Origin: a virus
Reading direction: 5' to 3' (one strand)
Virus record (IMG/VR): IMGVR_UViG_3300006880_000141
Location: 1 to 25,161 of that record
DNA: 25,161 nucleotides
Position numbers and translations under genes: made by a program. Below, one piece after another: positions 5,984 through 25,161 of this stretch (positions are counted from its first letter, which is position 1; the number at the start of each line of letters is the position of its first letter). The notes below the pieces were generated by a model. It was given only the letters and a program-made list of their open reading frames with translations, did no database searches and was not told the origin of the DNA.

Positions 5984-7486
5984 ATGTCGTTCAAACCGGA
6001 GCCTAAACCTCCCCAATTTGCTGATTTAAAGGGGATGTTAGCTCAGTCTAAACAGACTGATAATGCATTAAATCAGACTTTAACGATTTTAATCGATCGG
6101 TTAGATCAGCTTGAAGTTGCACGAGCAGATGTTGTTCAGCGTATTAACAATAGTGTCAATACGATTACCAGTTATGTCACATATTTAACAAATAATACAG
6201 CTACTTACCTCACTACATCTCCAGAAGAGGTTGCATTAGCTAATTCCTCTCAACTACTACCCGGTGCGAATATCGTATTTGATGCATCGGTTCCACATCG
6301 ACTTACCATTCACTCAACTGGAGGAGGTGGTACTGGCGGTGGAATGAATTTGGACTACTTAGGTGATTATGTAGGTGGTCCAGTCTATAATGATGGTGAT
6401 ATCGTAATTGGAGCTGATGGCGTAGCTTATATGTGTGTAGTAGATGGCACTACTACACCTCCAGAACCGTGGCCCGGAACAGGAGCAGCAGTAAATATCG
6501 GATTAGATGCAACATATTGGACTGTCAGTCCTCATACTGGTCTAACAAATGAACGCGCACTCAGCTTACTCGGAAATGGATACGTTAAAAGTACGGCAGG
6601 TGAACCATCAGTAGTTCCATCGATTCCACCGGGAGATTTACCACCATATATTGCATATACGAATATCGACAATCACTTTGTAGCTCAAACTTTTGCCTCA
6701 TTTTCGAGAATTTTAGGAACTAATGGTGCATTAATTTTTGCAGATACTGCTGCTCCAGTAAATAACACAATTTGGAGGCAATTAGGATATGGAAATGGTA
6801 ATTTTTATGTAGAAGCTTTGACAGATGACTATACTGTCATTCAAACGCAATTTTACTTTAGACGTGATGGATATTTTGGTGCAACTGGATTTATTGGAAA
6901 TGGTAGTAATCTTACCGCATTAAATGCAACTAATCTTACACTTGGAACAGTCCCACTCGCACGACTTGGAACTAATGCACCTACTGGAGGTTTATTTCTT
7001 GCTGGTGATAATACATGGAAAACTCCTGGTGGGATTCCTAGTGGGTTGATTGTGTTATCTACCACTGCGTGTCCTGTAGGATGGACGCGCATCACTGCAT
7101 GGGATGGTAGGTATATTCGTGTTGGTCCCGGTGGATTAGGTGGTTCTGCATCACATGGTCATACGTTTACCACGGATGCTGGAGGCGCTCATAATCATAC
7201 TGGTGAAACTAATGCTTTGGGCGATCATACTCACGGTTTTGGTGTACATACTCTATCTGGTACTGAGTCTGCTGGTACAATGAATGTGGATGCTGGTCAG
7301 AGCGGTAATATGTCTCGTGGTTTACATCAACACGGTGTTGATTATGATGGAAATACTGGTACTTCAGGATTTCACAGTCACCAAGTGAATCTAGTTGCAG
7401 CTGCTGCTCACGCGCACACGGGTGGTACTAACGCAGCTAATAATGATCCCTTGTATGTAGATTTATGGCTCTGTCAAAAGGACTAA
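5984..7486 (+). CDS. Tail fibre with tail-collar-like, His-rich C-terminal tip
   Basis: 500 residues. Residues 1-75 look like a coiled coil (TDNALNQTLTILIDRLDQL, ARADVVQRINNSVNTI) that would trimerise. A Gly-rich hinge near residue 110 follows, then a carbohydrate-binding-like segment (DYVGGPVYNDGDIVIG, AYMCVVDGTT). The shaft holds GFIGNGSNLTALNATNL and GTVPLARLG motifs common in phage fibres. The C-terminal 150 residues begin SGLIVLSTTACPVGWTRI and resemble the tail-collar family. Within residues 389-485 there are six H-x-H motifs (HGH, HNH, HTH, HQH, HSH, HAH), like the metal-binding H-x-H repeats of the T4 gp37 needle. It is the likely receptor-binding fibre. The Shine-Dalgarno is weak. 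Confidence 0.8.
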   Translation: MSFKPEPKPPQFADLKGMLAQSKQTDNALNQTLTILIDRLDQLEVARADVVQRINNSVNTITSYVTYLTNNTATYLTTSPEEVALANSSQLLPGANIVFDASVPHRLTIHSTGGGGTGGGMNLDYLGDYVGGPVYNDGDIVIGADGVAYMCVVDGTTTPPEPWPGTGAAVNIGLDATYWTVSPHTGLTNERALSLLGNGYVKSTAGEPSVVPSIPPGDLPPYIAYTNIDNHFVAQTFASFSRILGTNGALIFADTAAPVNNTIWRQLGYGNGNFYVEALTDDYTVIQTQFYFRRDGYFGATGFIGNGSNLTALNATNLTLGTVPLARLGTNAPTGGLFLAGDNTWKTPGGIPSGLIVLSTTACPVGWTRITAWDGRYIRVGPGGLGGSASHGHTFTTDAGGAHNHTGETNALGDHTHGFGVHTLSGTESAGTMNVDAGQSGNMSRGLHQHGVDYDGNTGTSGFHSHQVNLVAAAAHAHTGGTNAANNDPLYVDLWLCQKD

Positions 7487-16000: not shown

Positions 16001-18957
16001 TGAGAAGTGCGATAATTAACAGAGCTGAAGAAATAATTAGACAGGAACCAAGTGAAGCCAGATTACTAGAAACAGTTGATTGGATTCAGGGAGAATTGGA
16101 TAGAACAAGTACTACTGATTTGGAGCATAGATTACTTACAGAAATGTATGATCATGCTCAAACACAACTCAATGAAATCAATCAAACTACTGGAGCTGAA
16201 TATACTTCATTGAACCCTCAAAATGTAAGTAGAGTACAACCACCAAGTCGACGGAATAATTACTTGGGAGATGAAGTTAATGATGCATTAGCATCAGCTA
16301 GTAATTCATCAGACCTATTCCATATTCTCAGACAGAATCGAGATCATCCTTATCGTCAAGATTTGATAGACCATCTAGAACATCAAGCTGATGATCTAAT
16401 CTCAATTGCAAGTTTAGATGGTTTGAATAATGAACGTGCTGATATAATTCGTAGAATGGGTAGAGCTTTAGAACCCCATGAACATGATTTCATGAATACC
16501 GTATTGAATATGGTAGATCAGAAAATTGCAGATATTAGTCAACAAACTGGAAGATCACGTAAGAGAGTTATTGATCGTCCTGAAATAGAAACTCATCAGG
16601 CGGAAATACTTAAGAAAACTACTATGACTTCATTGAATCGTGTCATAAATAGACATCTAGAATCAAGAAAAGATATTTTAAGATCTATGGTAGGTGATCC
16701 AGTAGCTGATGCAGCAAGATGGAAACTAGTTCATAAGCTCGATGGACTTCTAGCCTTAGCAAATGAACGAGGACAATATATTGAAAGTCAAGCTGGCTCA
16801 TCTCCTGTAACTAGATTTGAACAGGAGACGGGAGGACAACAAGTATTACCTGATACAGATCTATTTAGTGCCAATAGTATGGCACCATTAGCTGATGTGC
16901 CTCCTCAGACTAATGCTGCTCAAGTACTTCAACAGGGAGCCAAAGAAGTTCAACGTAATCTACCTCTTAGTAGGAGATCAGCTAGACTAAAAATTCCAGG
17001 TTTTAGTATGGCACAGTTTCTAGAGGCTATAGAAACTTACAAACCTGAAAATTGGGATCCCGGTCTAACTCATGAATTTGCCGACACTCAAGTAAAATAC
17101 TACAATCCACAAGATGGACCAGTAGGAATTAGTGTAGAGGATGCGCGCGGTAGACCCACTACAGATGTACAGGATGGAACGAGAATAGTATATCGAGCTA
17201 AAACTGGTAATGCGCCCGCGAGAGTAATCGGAGTTGCTAAAGTAGGAGAACTATATGATGGTACTGGTAGATTAGGTATCGACACACTAGGTGCAGATAA
17301 GAATGCCGGAGCACTATATGGTAAGGCAACCTTTGAATTACTCAAAAAGGGAGTCGAACTTGATGTCGTGAGATCAACTGGAACCTACTCTAGTTGGAGT
17401 AGAGACATGATTCGTGGTCTACGAGACTTCGTAGATGATGAAGCTGGTCACTCTGATGATTGGCAGATGTGGGAGAACATTAAGAATAGAACTGGATGGG
17501 GTAAAGGTGGTGCTCCTGAAACATTCCCTGAAGGTGAGAAACCTAGAGAACCTAAAGCTAGTCTATTAAAGGAATTAATTGCAGCATCAAGTGCTGCCAC
17601 CACTACAGGTGATCTATCTGCATCAGGTAGACAGGCTCTACCTATGATTGGTACGCCTGAATTCTGGAAAGCCCAAGGTCCACAAATTAAGGCTGCATTT
17701 TCTCAGAAATACTTTGAAAACTACAATGCACAGTTGGAAAGATTGCCTATATTCCAACAGAAACTAGACATGAATACTGGTAAGCCGATCAAATCAATAG
17801 CTGAACGAAATGGAATGAAATTAATGAAACAGACTGATCATTTGAATGATCGTGAAGCAGCTATTGTTCCGAAATGGGTTGAATCTGGTGGTGATATCCC
17901 CGGTTTCTCTAAGCTATATCGAGCCACATTAGGTGGGTATTTCAAGGGATCTAATCGCGCATACATGACACTCTTGAATTCCATACGCGCGAATAGAACT
18001 CAGAAACTATTTGACTTGGCTCGTGATATGTCATATGAAGCTCTGAGTACGGGAGAGGCTAGACCGGGATTCTTCAAGCGAGAATACACACCAAATGAAG
18101 CTATGGCATTGAATCCGTATGAGAATGACATAGCAGCCAGAGAGATAGTTGACTTCGTTAATACGGCTACTGGTCGTGGACCACTCAAGATGCACTTATT
18201 GCCACTGAGAGGTTCAGAGAAGTCAGCCGAAGCTATAGCAGGTAAACTTGGATACGTGATGTTTGCACCTCGAATGGTTGCATCTCGTCTGCGTATGCTT
18301 AATCCGAGTACCTACATAATGGCTACTCCATTCGTGCGAAAGCAATACATGAAGGCTGCCCTGTCTATGGGTGCCGCATGGTATACGATGGCACAGATGG
18401 GTAAGTTGGGTGGTGGTGAAGTCAGTGATGATATGGACAGTGCTGACTTTGGAAAGATTAGAATTGGTGATCTACGTTTAGATCCTGGTTCTAGTTTCCA
18501 ACAGTTCCTAGTCGCATTCCATCGACTCTATACTGGCACATACACATCATCTGCTACCGGAGAATCACATCGATTTGGTACTGGATTCCAAGCTCAAACA
18601 CAAGGTGATCAGGGAGAGAGACTATTCACTAACAAACTGAATCCAGTAGCTAAGTTTGCATGGGATGTTATGAATGCATCTGAGTATCAACCATTCCATG
18701 TGTATGATAGGACAGCACAACTGTTCGTACCACTGGTGATACAAGATGTATTGGAATTGATTAGAGAGGATCAGAATAGACCTGATGGCCCATCCCTATT
18801 ACCACTACTAGCTCCAATAGTAATGGGGATGGGTAGTCAGGTTTACAGCAAGGGTGAATCTGTAGGCAAGTTCATCAGTCCTGAAGATGATTGGCTCGCT
18901 ACAGGTGGTGGACTAAGGGATCTATTCCCTGAAATAGGAGGGAATAATCCCTACTAA
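13006..18957 (+). CDS. 1983-aa giant internal virion / polyvalent protein with LPD38-like C-terminus
   Basis: The largest gene of the window; gggaga at 12994-12999 serves as ribosome-binding site. Two copies of IPGLxWD(D/E) stand at residues 5-12 and 21-28. A Gly/Ala-rich hydrophobic segment (91-136) could enter a membrane. A Pro/Thr linker lies at 307-350. Two diverged helical repeats begin near 975 and 1092. A domain near 1325-1480 (ARVIGVAKVGELYDGTGRLG, NAGALYGKATFELLKKG) resembles a GNAT fold. The C-terminal part (about 1745-1965; FAPRMVASRLRMLNPSTY, DFGKIRIGDLRLDPGSSFQQ, LFVPLVIQDVLELI) resembles the large-polyvalent-protein domain LPD38. No lytic-transglycosylase motif is seen. It is probably the main ejection protein, delivered into the host with the DNA. 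Confidence 0.6.
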   Translation: MGQQIPGLEWDDETKKKRPDIPGLMWDEPVPTPTQKPPEQSTLGKVWTKANEALVPFSPQMHQHMEEFDKQYPIASIPGSLAAEFTESGTSPVGLALMAGVEAAPLLQAAKYAKTAHALKAAGAIGAGAFGVSGAKEVFDASNDPTLDNWQKAGKITKGLIKLELGKIGAGVYGHGTTPAQASGLKKIGESDQPIKWNTPAEPTMGQQKFDFGQQQLDLPIGQHGAPSMDVRVPFDERFQRTPIGITSRPGVPETRPVTPAPIEGPELGPYGITQDHPQLPLGDEGQLDLGLNLWNPEATNLNVRPSSDLRTTPPAPPIEPTSPTSPSPTPVSTEAPIVTTEPRSTSTEPHIVELEGPNKKEEGNRLRAEGYEFHQINKNGNIELIRRAGPAAPAAPLPTVEPPKVGENDTIDYTPDKPFSLPSKYVNDTTIANLAKAGHKFLGRDSQGNGLFDKFIQDTSGASDDQALWENLRKMFGREPTPDEVQSARDREPKIGEQTGQVAQFPDPTHKALMGGMGKLTDKDIRFLDSFDDFGNPLNPADRGIESPSLPQTPEWTIEKERANDRLEVQGAREPELLQSLFEHWTDARARAIDSGDSISANHADEMLQIVRAKQLPSNMNIPGANPDTGAAEPPLTPEERGWTNNAAFPDQFSADRPHEVTGWDQAIPPQSGQQNLPLVGETPPVEPSGDIGKLRARQILGENWGETRQPEQMSMAGELGDDIINQYLKGEDATPPEMTDLSQYGPDDLAPRKGHFAEDLIKRTEGSNNPEELARKLRELFNGGRPPSQTMTWDTGYPENYPQYYSLPEGTYVILNRQSQPVGPFPRQGQAYNWAALGSIPDEVRQAYPPTDPFVPTNPTEDIPPINPNRPTFPNEPIRPPRDPNSQIPDNARLVAGSAGSFEHYLDPYSGEIMVIHPNMTASEGPFRDLGESTQWVMDHLDEIEPRGPGSPRDITDPNGNPRGGLTPVSILDELNNTHNVPRLYEIYRDEPPSRELRSAIINRAEEIIRQEPSEARLLETVDWIQGELDRTSTTDLEHRLLTEMYDHAQTQLNEINQTTGAEYTSLNPQNVSRVQPPSRRNNYLGDEVNDALASASNSSDLFHILRQNRDHPYRQDLIDHLEHQADDLISIASLDGLNNERADIIRRMGRALEPHEHDFMNTVLNMVDQKIADISQQTGRSRKRVIDRPEIETHQAEILKKTTMTSLNRVINRHLESRKDILRSMVGDPVADAARWKLVHKLDGLLALANERGQYIESQAGSSPVTRFEQETGGQQVLPDTDLFSANSMAPLADVPPQTNAAQVLQQGAKEVQRNLPLSRRSARLKIPGFSMAQFLEAIETYKPENWDPGLTHEFADTQVKYYNPQDGPVGISVEDARGRPTTDVQDGTRIVYRAKTGNAPARVIGVAKVGELYDGTGRLGIDTLGADKNAGALYGKATFELLKKGVELDVVRSTGTYSSWSRDMIRGLRDFVDDEAGHSDDWQMWENIKNRTGWGKGGAPETFPEGEKPREPKASLLKELIAASSAATTTGDLSASGRQALPMIGTPEFWKAQGPQIKAAFSQKYFENYNAQLERLPIFQQKLDMNTGKPIKSIAERNGMKLMKQTDHLNDREAAIVPKWVESGGDIPGFSKLYRATLGGYFKGSNRAYMTLLNSIRANRTQKLFDLARDMSYEALSTGEARPGFFKREYTPNEAMALNPYENDIAAREIVDFVNTATGRGPLKMHLLPLRGSEKSAEAIAGKLGYVMFAPRMVASRLRMLNPSTYIMATPFVRKQYMKAALSMGAAWYTMAQMGKLGGGEVSDDMDSADFGKIRIGDLRLDPGSSFQQFLVAFHRLYTGTYTSSATGESHRFGTGFQAQTQGDQGERLFTNKLNPVAKFAWDVMNASEYQPFHVYDRTAQLFVPLVIQDVLELIREDQNRPDGPSLLPLLAPIVMGMGSQVYSKGESVGKFISPEDDWLATGGGLRDLFPEIGGNNPY
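18916..18952. terminator. Hairpin at the convergent gene junction, candidate bidirectional terminator
   Basis: AGGGAT (18916-18921), one bulged base, TATTCCCT (18923-18930), an 8-base loop, then AGGGAATA (18939-18946) and ATCCCT (18947-18952): 14 base pairs with a single bulge. It lies in the last codons of the giant gene, where two opposing genes overlap by 4 bases. There is no clean T tract on either side, so the mechanism is uncertain. Confidence 0.45.
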
Positions 18958-19175
18958 ACTGAGTAATTTCTAATTACTTCACCCGCGCGTGGTCCCTTTG
19001 GAGAGGGGACAGACTCGAATACTACATCGACCTTCTGTCCTCTCTCTACATCCATACAGAGACTTTCAAAGTCCTCTTGAAAATCTGCACGATGGAAGAA
19101 ATATTCCTTTCCATCATCACCCTTGATGAATCCGTATCCCTTGTCACTCATTAGTCTGACTATTTTACCGTTCAT
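18954..19175 (-). CDS. Cold-shock-domain protein (73 aa)
   Basis: A canonical-size cold-shock protein, a small OB fold that binds single-stranded RNA or DNA. Residues 3-17 (GKIVRLMSDKGYGFI) hold the RNP1-type motif K-G-Y-G-F-I. EYFFHRADF at 24-32 is the RNP2-equivalent, and QKVDVVFESVPSPKGPRAGEVI is the usual third part with GPRAGEVI near the end. The open frame extends to 19274, but ATG 19175 is preferred. It begins exactly at the conserved domain, has a purine-rich ribosome-binding site, and makes an ATGA overlap with the stop of the zinc-finger gene. Last gene of the minus block; its stop overlaps the giant gene's stop by 4 bases. Role: nucleic-acid chaperone, perhaps for late operon mRNA or replication intermediates. 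Confidence 0.85.
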   Translation of the reverse strand: MNGKIVRLMSDKGYGFIKGDDGKEYFFHRADFQEDFESLCMDVERGQKVDVVFESVPSPKGPRAGEVIRNYSV

Positions 19176-19360
19176 CTCTCCCTCTCCCGGCGACAACGCC
19201 AATCCGCACACCTCTTGTTCAGTCCGTGATTCGTGAGTCCGCACGCGCACTTCCATGATGGTAAGTTCATACATTCCCTGATATAGTTGTGATCTATTTC
19301 TCCCTTCTCTTCAATCAGTTCGATTGATTCCTCTTGATAGGTCGGAAGAGGGACAATCAT
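19172..19360 (-). CDS. Small RanBP2-like zinc-finger protein
   Basis: 62 residues. The first 33 are acidic and helical (YQEESIELIEEKGEIDHNYI). The C-terminal half holds W36-x-C38-x-C40-x3-N44-x6-C51-x4-C56, close to the RanBP2-type zinc finger (W-x-C-x2-4-C-x3-N-x6-C-x2-C), a fold known for binding single-stranded RNA or protein. It ends in an Arg/Glu tail (RRERER). The start overlaps the stop of the helicase candidate as ATGA (19357-19360), and its own stop overlaps the start of the cold-shock gene as ATGA. All three are therefore likely translated in series. The fold is visible from the spacing; the ligand is unknown. Confidence 0.65.
   Translation of the reverse strand: MIVPLPTYQEESIELIEEKGEIDHNYIRECMNLPSWKCACGLTNHGLNKRCADWRCRRERER
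19178..19188 (-). promoter_or_regulatory. Ribosome-binding site fixing the cold-shock gene start
   Basis: On the minus strand this reads gggagagggag, 2 to 12 bases before ATG 19175. It supports the 73-aa protein over the longer frame that begins at 19274. Confidence 0.6.
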
Positions 19361-20634
19361 CGATTCTTCCCTGCATACAGTCGGTTCAGTTCTCTCACTT
19401 GATTATCTGGCATGATGTAGATGATCTGATTCCCGATGGTTTCAGTCTTGATCATACCAGCCTGATCAAATGATATCATGATCTCATCTAATTCAGCGGC
19501 ATCCTTGTAATGCGCCCACATCTTCTTGAGTAACATCGCGCGCGAGATCTGATGTGAATCCCGTCCGAGTAGTTCCTTCAGAATCACATTCTTGATGTTC
19601 TTCGCTTCTGATAGTCCCTTCTTACCATGAGTCATCTCGCGCACGTTACCTATCAATTTCTCACAGTACACGACAGCTAATTCCATTGACTCTTCATCGA
19701 TCTTCAAATCAGGTGCTTTCGCTAGAGATAGTAGCATAGCTACCTTCAATACCGAATCACCGAATCTATTCAATGTACCAGTTTCATCCTTTACCTCTTG
19801 GACTGCCATGTCCTCAATGAATCCTTCATACCATTGCTGATACATTAGACCAGCTGATGTGAAGTAATTAGTCTCACCTGATTCAATCTCAACGTGAGGA
19901 ATCTTAAAGTCTCCTTCTTGTTCTCGACTGGCTAACGCCTGAAATGGACCATTCAGATTACTCAGTTCCTTTAAGTAATCCGTCAGCTCTGCATACTTGG
20001 GCGGATTAATTAAGGGGACGAGTAATGAGTTAGCTCGATTCCTTTTATTCTCAGATATAATAAAAGTACGAGCAAAATAGCCACCATGAATATCCTTTCT
20101 AGCAAAGAAATCATTCGAGTGAGCTTCATTAGTTGCCGTTAACATTGTAATGGTCGGATCCTTCAAATTGAAAGACTCCATTTTCAGCAGACTACGCCAC
20201 TCGCCAATATTGTACTGACGGTCATACAGGTCTGTGAGTATGTCTGTGGCTACCTTGTCCTCAACTATCGAACTAGTTAATTCGCTACTACAAATGAATG
20301 CAGTAGACTTACTATTAACTTTACCACCAGGTTGAGTCTGGGCAGTTCCTAATTCTTTTAGGATGCCCTGTATACTAGATCTGCCACTAATGATACGTGT
20401 CCCATTAACAGCTTTCACCAGTTGCTTTGCCATACTGATTGGTGGACCCTTCTTCAATCCACTCTCAGCATGATACATCACATAGATGTTTGGATACAGG
20501 TTGTAAATCTGTCTATCCATCCATACATTATCTTTTACAACTGCTGATATAGCACTTAAGCCACCCCATAACCAGAAGTTCATGGGACTTTCTAGCTCGG
20601 AGTGTTGACTCAGCAGCTTTTCTAGCCATGTCAT
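19357..20634 (-). CDS. DUF3987-type putative replicative helicase/ATPase
   Basis: 425 residues, starting after gaggaag that overlaps the polymerase stop. The N-terminal half has the marks of the DUF3987 family of phage and mobile-element helicase-like ATPases. There is a P-loop-like Y-H-A-E-S-G-L-K-K-G-P-P at residues 54-65 in place of a classical GKS/T, a Walker-B-like segment (STAFICSSELTSSIV) near 110, and a TITMLTATNEAHSNDFF sensor-like strand near 165. The C-terminal part is helical with a winged-helix-like end. Lying directly downstream of the polymerase and with no other helicase or primase in the window, it is the best candidate for the replicative helicase. The P-loop Lys is present but the Ser/Thr after it is not, so ATPase activity is assumed from the family, not shown. 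Confidence 0.65.
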   Translation of the reverse strand: MTWLEKLLSQHSELESPMNFWLWGGLSAISAVVKDNVWMDRQIYNLYPNIYVMYHAESGLKKGPPISMAKQLVKAVNGTRIISGRSSIQGILKELGTAQTQPGGKVNSKSTAFICSSELTSSIVEDKVATDILTDLYDRQYNIGEWRSLLKMESFNLKDPTITMLTATNEAHSNDFFARKDIHGGYFARTFIISENKRNRANSLLVPLINPPKYAELTDYLKELSNLNGPFQALASREQEGDFKIPHVEIESGETNYFTSAGLMYQQWYEGFIEDMAVQEVKDETGTLNRFGDSVLKVAMLLSLAKAPDLKIDEESMELAVVYCEKLIGNVREMTHGKKGLSEAKNIKNVILKELLGRDSHQISRAMLLKKMWAHYKDAAELDEIMISFDQAGMIKTETIGNQIIYIMPDNQVRELNRLYAGKNR

Positions 20635-20642
20635 TTACTTCC

Positions 20643-23276
20643 TCAGAATGGTATGTCATCATCTTTAATTGTCCTATTCCATTCGCGCTCTCTTCTCACA
20701 TCCAACTGTTCTAACTGTTCTTGTCTGACTTCCTCATCAGTCACTGTGAATTGTTCAGTAGGGGTCAACTCTCTTACACGTACCAGTTCAGGTACTTCAA
20801 TCTTAACAGGCTCATCCTTTCCTTTGAATTTGCGTAAATCCTTGTAGTTCTCTCCAATCTCTACATCACATGGTATCTTAAGATACCTACGTGGTAGACT
20901 GCAAGTCTTAAAATTCAAAGGACGTTCCATCTCCTTTCGAGCTATCGGAATAAAGTCATCAAGATACTCTTTTCGCACCGAGAAAAGAAGCGCATCATGC
21001 GCCTCAAGTATAATTTTTGCTTCTCTGAATTGTCGCTTAATTCTGATACCTGCTGCTTTGGTATTATCAGTAACGGCTCGTTGAGGGATGTATGCCATAG
21101 CTTCTCTGAACAGGTCATCACCCCACCTTTCATAGAAAATACGTACACCACCTCTCTCCGCGTCAATACCCCACGGGAGCGGGGCGATAAGTTGCCTAGT
21201 ATTTTTGAGGCATTCAATGATTCCGGCATGGAATATCCTTTGTATTTTAGGTTGACGTGCGTGGAATATCTTCAATGCACGGTCGGCGATTGCTTCCGTG
21301 ATGGTGATTGGGATCTTATATTTACGTGCTTGGGTATTGAGTTCTGTACTTGCTCTTCTCGCGCCCGCTCCAAGATGGCCCGCATGACGTAGAGTCTTCC
21401 CGGCGAATCTAATAGGAGATTCATATCCCAGAATCTTCTTGGAGTAATTCTCTTCAGTACCACCAAAAAACCATGAAGCAGTGAGTGCATGATAGTCATG
21501 TTCATCAATATCCTGTAATGCTTGTTCATCCATTGCCAAGTTAAACACTACACGCGCTTCAGCTTGACTAGAGTCCAGATTAACAAATATTTCCCCCTCA
21601 TCAGGGATATACATTCCGCGTACGTCAGCTCCAATATCACCATGCTTAGTGAATACTTGGAATGCCGTACCCATCACTTTCATGTCTTTCTTTTTACCCT
21701 TACCGACTAGATCGACTAGTGGTCTGATAGGTGGGTCTTGCTGACCTGTTGATGTGCGTCCAGTCTCTAGACACATATAACACGTCGTGCGCATCTTCTT
21801 ATCGTAATCAGGAATCGCAAAGAGATAAGTCGATATTGTTTTACGTACTCGACGTCTCTCAAGACACTTCTCTATCCATTCACGTTGATCTGCTGTCTTG
21901 ACTCCTGATTTGAGATTCAATAGAGCCGTAAGTTCCTCTTCTCCGACTCCTTTTCTTCTAGGTAGACCCCACTCATCGAATAGAAATGAATAGACTTGAA
22001 CTGGTGAACTGACGTTAATGTCTACTCCAGCTATCTTGAACATCTCGAATCCAAGACGCTCATCCCATTCGACGTACTTCTTGATTAACTCTGATCTCTT
22101 AGCTTCATCGACTCTGAATCCGTTGTTCTCAATCTCTAGATAGAAATCAGGGAGTTTCATCAGGAAGTTTTCATAGAATTTCCTGACTCCTAATTCATCT
22201 AAGTCCGCATCCATCGCCTCGTCTATTTCGTATGTGACACAAGCATCACGCGCGCATCCGAGCAATAAATCTCCAAGTTTCCCTTCATACATACCTTCAT
22301 CTTTATAGAAGGGTTCTCTGGTGTAGAGACTTGTAATAAATGCAAGCCCTTTCGGGAGTTCAGGGTTAATCGCGAATGCTTTGAGCATTGTATCTGAGTG
22401 TATTCCTCGAATAGTGAACCCCAGTCGTCTAAGTTTATCACGATCGTAGTTGAAGTTTTGTCCGACAATTTTCTTCTCCATTAATACTTCGGAGAGCATA
22501 CTCCAAAGTGTAGCCATATCCGAATCAGGGATAGTTGATATGCCACCATCATTCCACAAAGGGACCGTCATTCCATGAGATTTATTGAATGACAATCCTA
22601 CACAGATAGGAAGACAATGACCACCTGCTTCAATATCTACTGACAATTTCTCATGATTCTCATACTTCTTCAGGAACTCATACAAGTCACCAGAGTTACG
22701 ACAGATCTGAAGTACTCGATTAGGCAGTTCTAGTAGTGGACTCCACCTCTCTTCCCATGCCCTCTTGATATCGAATATCATTATTTGTCGATTCCAGTAT
22801 CCCTTGATTTCTCCGCCCGCAGCACTATGTAAAAGATGCGCGGGATGATAGGTAGGCACAAACTTATGGTCCATCCCCCACATGAGTGATCCGCGATGCC
22901 TAGATATTTTATCTTTCCCTGAGAGCGCCCAAAGAGCAGTGCCACCAAGAGCAAGTATGACGTTGGGCTTGATGTCATTTATCTCTACTCTCAGTTCAGC
23001 TAATTGCTGTTCCATGTCGATGCCATGATTACGCGCGCGCACATGGAATGGTAGCTTTTTCCTAGCTGCATTAGGTGGAACTTCATACTTGCATACATTC
23101 GTAATCCAACACTCACTTCTAGGGACTCCCGCATCTTTGAGTAGTCTATCTAGTTCTCTACCACTAGCTCCAACGAATGGCTTACCCGCGTGTGTCTCCT
23201 CATAACTAGGAGCTTCACCTAGTATGAGTACCTTCGCGCCCATCGGTCCCATTCCTGGGACATATTTATGTTCCAT
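20643..23276 (-). CDS. Uracil-DNA-glycosylase-like / 3'-5' exonuclease / family-A DNA polymerase fusion
   Basis: 877 residues with a strong ribosome-binding site (aaaggggg). Residues 8-170 are a family-4 UDG-like domain: G20-E-A-P, G31-K-P-F-V-G, T59-N-V and H145-P-A. They lack the usual Fe-S Cys set. Residues about 205-365 are a DnaQ-like exonuclease: motif I V-D-I-E near 214, motif II N-F-N-Y-D near 273, and motif III C-A-R-D near 340 with Gly where Tyr is usual. The polymerase follows: motif A D-S-S-Q-A-E-A-R near 565, motif B R-F-A-G-K-T-L-R-H-A-G near 622, motif C A-H-D-A near 760. No 5'-3' exonuclease. The architecture recalls the SPO1-type polymerase. A polar tail of about 50 residues ends in DDDIPF, the bacterial SSB tip. 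This is the main replicase of the phage. Confidence 0.9.
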   Translation of the reverse strand: MEHKYVPGMGPMGAKVLILGEAPSYEETHAGKPFVGASGRELDRLLKDAGVPRSECWITNVCKYEVPPNAARKKLPFHVRARNHGIDMEQQLAELRVEINDIKPNVILALGGTALWALSGKDKISRHRGSLMWGMDHKFVPTYHPAHLLHSAAGGEIKGYWNRQIMIFDIKRAWEERWSPLLELPNRVLQICRNSGDLYEFLKKYENHEKLSVDIEAGGHCLPICVGLSFNKSHGMTVPLWNDGGISTIPDSDMATLWSMLSEVLMEKKIVGQNFNYDRDKLRRLGFTIRGIHSDTMLKAFAINPELPKGLAFITSLYTREPFYKDEGMYEGKLGDLLLGCARDACVTYEIDEAMDADLDELGVRKFYENFLMKLPDFYLEIENNGFRVDEAKRSELIKKYVEWDERLGFEMFKIAGVDINVSSPVQVYSFLFDEWGLPRRKGVGEEELTALLNLKSGVKTADQREWIEKCLERRRVRKTISTYLFAIPDYDKKMRTTCYMCLETGRTSTGQQDPPIRPLVDLVGKGKKKDMKVMGTAFQVFTKHGDIGADVRGMYIPDEGEIFVNLDSSQAEARVVFNLAMDEQALQDIDEHDYHALTASWFFGGTEENYSKKILGYESPIRFAGKTLRHAGHLGAGARRASTELNTQARKYKIPITITEAIADRALKIFHARQPKIQRIFHAGIIECLKNTRQLIAPLPWGIDAERGGVRIFYERWGDDLFREAMAYIPQRAVTDNTKAAGIRIKRQFREAKIILEAHDALLFSVRKEYLDDFIPIARKEMERPLNFKTCSLPRRYLKIPCDVEIGENYKDLRKFKGKDEPVKIEVPELVRVRELTPTEQFTVTDEEVRQEQLEQLDVRREREWNRTIKDDDIPF

Positions 23277-23460: not shown

Positions 23461-23605
23461 CTTCTTCCTTCTTCTCTACAGGCTTTTCCACAGAGAACAT
23501 CTTGGAACACACCACACAGAACCACAGCCTTCTGATGGGCATCCATTCCATCAGAGTAATATCACTGTTCGAACAGTGGGGACACTTCAGTAGTTGTGTC
23601 GTCAT
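23453..23605 (-). CDS. 50-aa zinc-ribbon protein
   Basis: A short gene beginning MTTQLLKCPHCSNSDITLME and containing C8-x2-C11 and, 19 residues later, FCVVC (C30-x2-C33), a clear two-knuckle zinc ribbon. It ends with an acidic/basic tail (VEKPVEKKEEDE). It overlaps the end of the upstream cold-shock gene by 44 bases in another frame and the start of the 64-aa gene by 8 bases. A purine-rich gagagaaag lies upstream of the ATG. The perfect Cys spacing in such a short frame argues strongly that it is real. Likely a nucleic-acid- or protein-binding zinc ribbon; the partner is unknown. Confidence 0.7.
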   Translation of the reverse strand: MTTQLLKCPHCSNSDITLMEWMPIRRLWFCVVCSKMFSVEKPVEKKEEDE

Positions 23606-23846
23606 CAGTTCTTTCTCTCTTATCAATCACACGCACATGGATTGCACGATGACCTTTACCCGGAATCTGAATTGGAGTGAACTCGACAATCATTCCAGTC
23701 TTCAATTCCTTAAATCCAATTGTGTCCTGTACGAGCGCAGTCCAATGAAAGAAGATACGTGTGAATTCAATATCCTTAGATGAGATGAATCCCCACCCTT
23801 CTTTACTCACTTTTATTACACGTCCAACGGCTTTCTTGTCAGTCAT
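23562..23846 (-). CDS. Second cold-shock-domain protein (94 aa)
   Basis: Residues 7-72 form a cold-shock OB domain: GRVIKVSKEGWGFISS carries the RNP1-like E-G-W-G-F-I, RIFFHWTALV is the RNP2-equivalent, and GMIVEFTPIQIPGKGHRAIHVRVI closes the fold. Compared with the 73-aa protein it is more diverged (Trp in RNP1, a longer loop before RNP2), so the two are paralogues or independent acquisitions. A tail of about 20 acidic/Thr residues (RTDDDTTTEVSPLFEQ) follows, whose codons overlap the 50-aa zinc-ribbon gene. A purine-rich aaagagaagaa precedes the ATG. It lies downstream of a long hairpin region that may control it. Confidence 0.8.
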   Translation of the reverse strand: MTDKKAVGRVIKVSKEGWGFISSKDIEFTRIFFHWTALVQDTIGFKELKTGMIVEFTPIQIPGKGHRAIHVRVIDKRERTDDDTTTEVSPLFEQ

Positions 23847-24042: not shown

Positions 24043-24288
24043 CTAGTCGTCGTCGTCATCTTCATTCAGAAGACCTTCGGTAGTCTCTTCACTACCATCA
24101 TCGTCTTCATCATCTTCATCATCGTCTTCATCATCCTCGAAGACTTCTTCCTCATCTTCATCGTCCACTTCAGTCTCATCTTCAATGAGTTTCTCAGTGA
24201 CTCCGTCTCCCTCTTCAGTCGAATCATCATCTTCTGGATCAGATGATTCCACGCGCGCGTCACCAAATTCATCGAGATAGAATTCCAT
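24043..24288 (-). CDS. Extremely acidic small protein
   Basis: 81 residues from ATG 24288, of which 48 are Asp or Glu and only 2 are basic by my count. I choose ATG 24288 over ATG 24294 because aggag at 24296-24300 is 7 bases from the former and only 1 from the latter. The N-terminal MEFYLDEFGDARV and the segments VTEKLIE and GLLNE are the only hydrophobic parts. The rest is D/E runs ending in NEDDDDD. Such proteins may act as DNA mimics, histone-like-protein or SSB-site competitors, or chaperones. The runs resemble an isolated acidic tail. It sits between a terminator and a hairpin, so it may be expressed at its own level. Function unknown. Confidence 0.7.
   Translation of the reverse strand: MEFYLDEFGDARVESSDPEDDDSTEEGDGVTEKLIEDETEVDDEDEEEVFEDDEDDDEDDEDDDGSEETTEGLLNEDDDDD
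24046..24177 (-). repeat. GAT/GAA trinucleotide microsatellite
   Basis: Runs of gat, gac and gaa (read on the minus strand) encode the Asp/Glu tract of the acidic protein. The near-perfect tcatcatcttcatcatcg pattern on the plus strand invites slippage and length variation. Confidence 0.75.
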
Positions 24289-24295
24289 CGTCATT

Positions 24296-24378: not shown

Positions 24379-24771
24379 CTAGCTACGAACGGGCCGATAC
24401 TTGTGATTGACGCGATTCACCATGCGTCCCTGCCACTCACCATTCTCAACGAATACTTCGACCTGACGGCCTACTGCATTCGCAAGATCGAATCGCGCAC
24501 CTGATTTCACCTCAACACCAAATGAGTTGAGGAAACCAACTGCGAATCCAATCGCCTTGGAGTTGAAGTTCCAATCGAGAGGAACCTTCGCGTACTCTTC
24601 TGATCCCGTATCGGCATTCTTGATGATCGTGGCCTCGACAGGATAGTTCGTAGAACCACCATCTTTCGATGGGCCTTCTCCGATGTTGTCGATATTGACA
24701 ACATACCATGCAGGCTCTACAACTTTACCGCGGAGAAGATCACGATCTGAAAACTGTACAATCGGACTCAT
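24379..24771 (-). CDS. SSB-like / OB-fold candidate protein
   Basis: 130 residues from ATG 24771. The frame also allows a GTG at 24780, but aggag at 24780-24784 is 8 bases from the ATG and overlaps the GTG, so ATG is preferred. The protein is beta-rich (LRGKVVEPAWYVVNIDNIG, STNYPVEATIIKNA, DWNFNSKAIGFAVGFLNSFG, GARFDLANAVGRQVEVFVEN, WQGRMVNRVNHKYRP). The pattern of a G-x-W-Y-x-V-x-I strand, a phosphate-turn-like G-E-G-P-S-K-D-G-G-S and a final G-R-x-x-N-R-V-x-x-Y resembles phage SSB-like proteins such as the DUF669 type. Its place beside a Sak4-like ATPase supports an ssDNA-binding role. It lacks an SSB-type acidic tip. Confidence 0.5.
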   Translation of the reverse strand: MSPIVQFSDRDLLRGKVVEPAWYVVNIDNIGEGPSKDGGSTNYPVEATIIKNADTGSEEYAKVPLDWNFNSKAIGFAVGFLNSFGVEVKSGARFDLANAVGRQVEVFVENGEWQGRMVNRVNHKYRPVRS

Positions 24772-24779
24772 TTCACACA

Positions 24780-24784
24780 CTCCT
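24780..24784 (-). promoter_or_regulatory. Ribosome-binding site deciding the SSB-like gene start
   Basis: aggag on the minus strand, 8 bases before ATG 24771; its last base overlaps the alternative GTG. Confidence 0.6.
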
Positions 24785-24789
24785 GTTTG

Positions 24790-25161
24790 TTAGAACTTCG
24801 ATGTTGGAACGTAGGTTTCTTTCATTTTGGTGATGGCTGGTTTGATGTAGCTATCGTAGAGAGGCTTGTCACCGAATACAATCTCTCTGTCCAGTCCAAG
24901 TGCTGTTCTTGCGAAGTCATCACCTGTGTGCTCAGTCAATAGTGAATAGTCACCTCCTGCTCCTTCTACGAATCCCTTCTTAATGTTGAAGTGATATACT
25001 TCACCACAATAAGCAGGGATTTTCGGTGCAACTTTTTTACCCGCAGTCACGATGGTTCTGCTGACGTGCGTGGTATTGTTCGTAGTGTTACGATATTCCG
25101 CCTGAACGACGTGCGCGATAAGGATAATGTTCACCTTATGGAAGGCACATATATCCTTTGT
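24790..25161 (-). CDS. C-terminal part of a Sak4/AAA_24-like RecA-fold ATPase, 5' end outside window
   Basis: The frame is open to the right edge, so this is the last about 123 residues of a longer protein. The apparent start at 25134 is only a GTG inside a continuing frame. NIILIAHVVQ is the strand-plus-His motif near the end of the RecA-like core in AAA_24/Sak4 phage ATPases. It is followed by a polar insertion and TAGKKVAPKIPAYCGEVYHF, then FARTALGLDREIVF and a last helix (YIKPAITKMKE), matching the usual C-terminal order of that family. The family takes part in single-strand annealing recombination. The Walker A part is not visible. It lies 18 bases before the SSB-like gene, a common pairing in phages. 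Confidence 0.65.
   Translation of the reverse strand, partial: TKDICAFHKVNIILIAHVVQAEYRNTTNNTTHVSRTIVTAGKKVAPKIPAYCGEVYHFNIKKGFVEGAGGDYSLLTEHTGDDFARTALGLDREIVFGDKPLYDSYIKPAITKMKETYVPTSKF

Follow-up and report, generated by a model that had tools for sequence, protein, structure and literature searches.

E. coli SSB ends in the sequence ...DFDDDIPF, and each SSB tetramer carries four such tips. This C-terminal peptide (SSB-Ct) is among the best-studied docking peptides of bacterial genome maintenance, and its interactions have been explored as antibiotic targets. The DNA analysed here, a stretch of 25,161 nucleotides from an uncultured phage hereafter called the window, encodes a DNA polymerase with the same ending. 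This raises the question whether the ending of the polymerase is functional and, if so, what it might do there.

The polymerase and its C-terminal tail

As the initial annotation of this DNA had stated, translation of the minus strand between 20643 and 23276 gave a polymerase of 877 amino acids that ends in K-D-D-D-I-P-F-stop (NRTIKDDDIPF-stop with the preceding residues). The tip had been placed at 20643-20660, an interval that covers DDIPF and the stop codon and misses the first Asp; the whole hexapeptide with the stop codon occupies 20643-20663. The SSB-Ct motif, [D/E]D(I/L)PF, stands exactly at the C-terminus, and the terminal Phe carries the free carboxylate. The following features were assigned to the polymerase and the adjoining gene.

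20643-23276, minus strand: UDG-exonuclease-family A DNA polymerase fusion ending in DDDIPF (translation, 877 aa; Pfam; profile-versus-structure matches)
22821-23258, minus strand: N-terminal type-4-like UDG domain, residues 7-152 (Pfam UDG, 2.9e-22; structure profile match)
20841-22061, minus strand: family A polymerase domain, residues 406-812 (Pfam DNA_pol_A, 3.3e-23)
20664-20822, minus strand: linker, variable and mostly of low confidence, residues 819-871 (AlphaFold2; identity among tip-bearing relatives)
20643-20663, minus strand: DDDIPF tip and stop codon, residues 872-877 (translation; conservation)
19357-20634, minus strand: primase/helicase-like gene, next downstream of the polymerase (Pfam DUF3987; phrog_14296, DNA primase)

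The domains are arranged in the order UDG, 3'-5' exonuclease, PolA, as in the phage UDG-bearing family A polymerases (phrog_17; 'SPO1 DNA polymerase-related'), to which the protein belongs. The exonuclease domain (residues 191-352) is weak and taken alone falls below the Pfam cut-off. The family profile matched structures of Klenow, Taq and type-4 UDG. UDG, exonuclease and PolA were the only Pfam domains of the window polymerase, and no OB-fold (PF00436) was found in it. In Caulobacter phage Kuura (L102) the UDG-exonuclease part and the polymerase part are two separate genes, and the polymerase of MW202554 (L104) is likewise annotated as two genes.

The initial annotation had described a probably disordered tail of about 50 residues beyond the polymerase domain. 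In an AlphaFold2 model computed from a 48-sequence alignment (mean pLDDT 84.6, pTM 0.80) the confident fold reached approximately residue 818. The pLDDT was below 50 at residues 820-837, 842-846 and 867-877, and a helix of moderate confidence (residues 848-870) was placed between low-confidence stretches. According to this model about 59 residues follow the fold, most of them disordered, and the tip stands at their end, in agreement with the earlier description. SSB-Ct, too, is presented on a disordered linker of variable sequence. The linker contains a TEQF-type motif ([S/T]xTEQF) at residues 840-843 (20748-20759, minus strand). Most relatives have this motif near the polymerase C-terminus, whether they bear the tip or not, and it is possibly another replisome docking peptide.

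Conservation and distribution of the tip

Scans of viral contigs yielded 101 distinct relatives. Fourteen distinct polymerases among them end in [D/E]DIPF (DDIPF in 11, EDIPF in three), after linkers that differ in length. Within this set the mean pairwise identity was 44.8% in the linker, which contains indels, 79.6% in the core and 92.7% in the last five residues; for these polymerases the expectation of the initial annotation, that the tip is constant while the linker varies, was thus confirmed.

On the tree of the 14 genes, a minimum of 25 base changes is required in the last five codons, and third positions account for all of them. Almost every change was synonymous (D/E being the sole difference), as compared with a synonymous fraction of 0.18-0.25 expected without selection. 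When ten tip-bearing polymerases were compared in pairs, which are not independent of each other, 119 synonymous and 0 non-synonymous codon differences were counted. These values indicate purifying selection on the tip residues. Since third positions vary and the next gene does not overlap the tip codons, the constraint acts on amino acids, which is strong evidence that the tip is kept by selection at that level. Constraint from an overlapping gene was ruled out for the tip-bearing polymerases, because the primase gene begins past the polymerase stop codon and third positions are free.

Polymerases are not the only bearers of the tip. It was found on the polymerase in 14 of the 101 relatives, on a small protein encoded at the same locus in 26, and in neither place in 34; contig ends prevented scoring of the remaining 27. 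No genome among the 101 relatives had both forms. In whole-contig scans DDIPF-stop occurred once per polymerase locus in tip-bearing contigs, at the end of the polymerase or of the small protein (the location of the matches was confirmed at several positions). The same scans gave no match in the genomes scored as having neither form, and a reversed control pattern gave 0 matches. One contig of 62 kb (IMGVR_UViG_3300036851_000016, G031) had two matches; it carries two diverged polymerase loci, L170 and L185, both of which encode a small tip protein, and could be two joined genomes. A relaxed scan of the tip-less genomes for [D/E]x[hydrophobic]PF detected only a zinc-ribbon ORF of one genome, which ends in DVIPF, and two ESLPF strings of putative coding status. 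Unlike the window polymerase, seven more distant annotated phages with related UDG-bearing polymerases of the phrog_17 type have no SSB-like tip. A search for hosts found no relatives in GTDB genomes.

On the polymerase tree most of the phages with the small protein form one sister clade, with L024/L028 and L075 as additions. In the window's clade tip-bearing and tip-less polymerases are interleaved, and at least three changes are forced by well-supported branches of this unrooted tree. This interleaving indicates that the tip was repeatedly gained or lost. With neither form present in 34 of the 101 relatives, the tip is facultative, and the family as a whole can do without it.

The initial annotation had allowed for a chance match, and had held that homologues ending in unrelated residues would speak against a function. 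A chance or neutral C-terminal sequence could be argued from the brevity of the match, which comprises only six residues, and from the many homologues without it. Because the tip is facultative, unrelated ends were indeed encountered, literally so in the 34 relatives with neither form. The conservation in the tip-bearing set is nevertheless incompatible with chance: the tip persists past a variable linker in 14 polymerases, its codons changed in third positions only, the control pattern was empty, and the same tip recurs on a second protein of the polymerase locus. Codon-level selection and conservation across the linker rule out a chance match, and we regard the probability of a neutral sequence as negligible.

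The small tip protein and other phage proteins with the same ending

The 26 relatives with the second form of the tip have a tip-less polymerase and encode a protein of 63-79 amino acids, whose gene is usually the first or second after that of the polymerase. In these sister phages it usually sits between the polymerase and the primase/helicase-like gene. The small protein ends in DIPF at 20 of the 26 loci (mostly DDDIPF or NDDIPF). Degenerate ends were found at four loci (DLPF, ELPF, NLPF and DLPL, one each), and two loci, L165 and L195, are broken. At L165 DDDIPF is one base out of frame, probably because of an indel or a sequencing error. The L195 phage differs from the near-identical L181 phage by a deletion that removed the C-terminal half of the small protein together with the tip, and represents a natural loss variant; the region concerned lies at about 7000-7300 and 7650-7940 in L181 and L195. 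The codon tests described above were run on polymerases only; in some sister phages the gene following the small one begins within the tip codons.

The predicted structure of the small protein (mean pLDDT 84.3) consists of two strands forming a beta-hairpin, a long helix and an unstructured end. No convincing family was found for it in Pfam or PHROG, and a fold search of PDB and BFVD returned nothing at E <= 0.001. The OB-fold that defines SSBs was found neither here nor in the polymerase; the tip-bearing proteins of this locus are not SSBs. Across 23 small proteins the mean column identity was 38%, and the sole invariant column was the Pro of the tip. A joint alignment of all small proteins proved too diverse to serve as a query for scanning the collection and was set aside. 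A tip-free profile of the core, whose training set was tip-selected, was run on the first 80 loci, and every intact member that it detected had the tip. As to an origin by gene fusion, most polymerase tails scored no better against the C-terminus of the small protein than many of their own shuffles.

The polymerases of the phages with the small protein often end in a tail of the DSKLTDIIY type. By eye, such tails were recognized at 18 of the 26 small-protein loci (L024, L057, L070 and L175 among them), in two of the 34 relatives with neither form, and in none of the 14 tip-bearing polymerases. Given this co-occurrence and the adjacency of the genes, the tail could be the docking site of the small protein on the polymerase. 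The co-occurrence could also reflect gene linkage and clade membership.

The presence of the tip on a neighbouring protein in 26 relatives indicates that what counts is a docking tip that can move within the replicase locus, and not the polymerase alone. The original view, in which the polymerase mimics SSB so as to bring host factors to the phage fork or to draw them away from host SSB, has to be modified accordingly: the tip is real, under selection and carried on a flexible tail, but it is not a fixed feature of the polymerase.

The ending was also sought in other viral proteins. A codon-subset scan of viral contigs for DDDIPF-stop gave at least 80 loci, from which class proportions can be read as those of a sample. 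Among the matches listed, the ending closes ORFs of 49-610 amino acids. Of 73 sampled proteins, 21 matched the SSB family and many more matched PHROG ssDNA-binding families, so that ssDNA-binding proteins make up most of those with a functional family match. A few matched a DNA helicase, a primase/helicase, a DnaB-like helicase, a polymerase processivity factor or a TIR-domain protein. No DNA polymerase was present in the 25 listed of the 37 PHROG families of the sampled proteins, and a polymerase with DDDIPF is unusual within the sample listed. Among the matches listed, the distribution of the sequence thus strongly ties the ending to proteins of ssDNA binding and replication, and it favours a functional reading of the polymerase tip. 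Two individual proteins may be mentioned. A phage helicase-like protein of 610 amino acids (L277, 942-2771, plus strand) ends in DDDIPF. So does a 296-aa viral-contig protein (L338, 11091-11978, plus strand), apparently the one that matches the CAP12/Pycsar-type TIR domain, in which the ending might link a TIR effector to SSB-reading proteins.

Candidate partners and the role of the tip

In bacterial SSB-Ct the terminal Phe fills a hydrophobic pocket, the carboxylate lies on a basic lip and Asp on a basic ridge of the partner, and removal of the Phe abolishes binding (PMC10164576). The features conserved in the polymerase tip are exactly those required by this pocket chemistry. Bacterial SSB-Ct and the polymerase tip have in common the identical hexapeptide, its location at the exact C-terminus, a flexible and variable linker, the conserved Pro and Phe and the preceding acidic residues. 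They differ in the bearer (here a DNA polymerase or a small protein without a detected OB-fold), in number (one tip per polymerase chain against four per SSB tetramer) and in that the phage tip is facultative across relatives. From the identity of the motif it is likely that the tip docks into pockets of the SSB-Ct type. We therefore consider it probable that the tip of the replicase is a docking peptide of this type, which recruits a reader of the SSB tip to the phage replication fork.

The genes upstream of the polymerase are relevant to the choice of partner.

24379-24780, minus strand: SSB-like protein, tentative, conserved in relatives (phrog_378, weak)
24790-25161, minus strand: Sak4-like ssDNA annealing ATPase, candidate partner, running off the window (phrog_124, E=4e-4)

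The assignment of the SSB-like protein is weak: its best match was to phrog_378 (3 of 12 members, E=0.0095), and comparison with Pfam and PDB gave no match. With this reservation as to its identity, the earlier observation that the nearby SSB-like protein lacks the tip was correct for the window, and neither an acidic nor a PF tip was present on it in any relative listed, including those without any tip. Lacking the tip, the SSB-like protein could not do the docking job proposed here for the replicase. Directly after its gene the window has a strongly acidic 83-aa ORF ending in DDDDD (24043-24294, minus strand). Most relatives have a short, strongly acidic ORF in this place, unconserved in sequence, which may be a detached acidic tail. 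The replication region also encodes two distinct cold-shock-domain proteins (18954-19274 and 23562-23846, both on the minus strand).

The steps of the proposed recruitment can be outlined as follows. The tip, on its flexible tail of about 59 residues, would bind to a protein whose usual ligand is the SSB tip, with the Phe entering a hydrophobic pocket, the carboxylate resting on a basic lip and the Asp on a basic ridge of the partner. The replicase would supply the tip that the phage's own SSB-like protein is without, and would hold the docked partner or partners at the phage fork. In the sister phages the 63-79 aa neighbour would supply the tip in trans. We infer that tips in cis (on the polymerase) and in trans (on the small protein) share one job, and that the effect is recruitment, not sequestration. 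Host SSB-interacting proteins are candidate partners, and so is the phage's own Sak4.

Sak4 is a candidate because in phage HK620 this protein is stimulated by the phage SSB through its last six residues, NDYPPF (PMC5928155). In HK620 and in the phages studied here alike, Sak4 belongs to a replication/recombination module in which a C-terminal tip occurs, but in HK620 the tip is on the SSB, whereas in the phages studied here it is on the polymerase or its small neighbour and the SSB-like protein is without it. The tip might then dock a phage protein, most likely the Sak4-like annealing ATPase, and couple DNA synthesis to annealing or concatemer formation. In favour of this version, all tip-bearing relatives whose sequence extends far enough upstream have a Sak4-like gene, and the SSB-like protein encoded next to it has no tip. 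However, wherever the upstream sequence suffices, the gene occurs equally in relatives of the other tip states, those without any tip included, so that the tip is not required for it. On balance, this version is rather unlikely. The SSB-like gene likewise occurred in all tip states. When gene presence and absence were compared between eight tip-bearing and 11 tip-less genomes of the window's clade, no gene passed correction for multiple testing; the highest-ranking clusters were small or possibly antisense ORFs.

Acidic C-terminal tails also tether the replisome proteins of phage T7, where those of gp2.5 and gp4 bind the gp5 polymerase. The T7 polymerase is thus the receptor of such tails; the window polymerase is a tail donor, and its tail has the SSB-Ct sequence. 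The acidic tails of gp32, T7 gp2.5 and E. coli SSB are known to compete with ssDNA, and by analogy the tip could regulate its own bearer, acting as a DNA mimic on the DNA-binding groove of the polymerase or of the SSB-like protein. An acidic mimic would need no invariant Pro-Phe end, yet in the polymerases and the small proteins alike few residues are as well conserved as Pro and Phe, which makes self-regulation highly improbable.

Alternatively, the tip could be a decoy: by binding the partners of host SSB in its place, it would put repair, restart or defence proteins of the host out of action. The small and possibly abundant trans proteins of the sister phages would suit a competitor. Replicases are usually not abundant, and SSB-Ct binds single partners weakly (micromolar), which would make a polymerase-borne tip a poor rival of the abundant SSB; moreover, the small tip gene stays at the replicase locus. 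A decoy role is accordingly unlikely, and it and self-regulation are both less likely than docking and recruitment.

Docking and recruitment by the replicase tip leave room for a more general arrangement, which we propose tentatively. The function of the SSB tip may have been separated from the ssDNA-binding protein and transferred either in cis to the polymerase or in trans to a small 'tip adaptor' attached to the polymerase through the latter's DSKLTDIIY-type tail. If so, the replicase, instead of SSB-coated DNA, would be the hub that gathers SSB-interacting proteins.

Neither the peptide nor the way in which it is used is new. The polymerase that bears it and the small protein family are apparently undescribed: in the open-access literature, to which the search extended, we found no description of a DNA polymerase ending in an SSB tip, or of a small protein family in which the tip is the sole invariant feature. 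A tip on the replicase reverses the usual order, in which SSB donates the tip and enzymes receive it. The three states encountered among related phages (tip on the polymerase, tip on a small neighbour, no tip) amount to a natural experiment, by which one can directly test what host or phage protein has to be captured at a phage fork.
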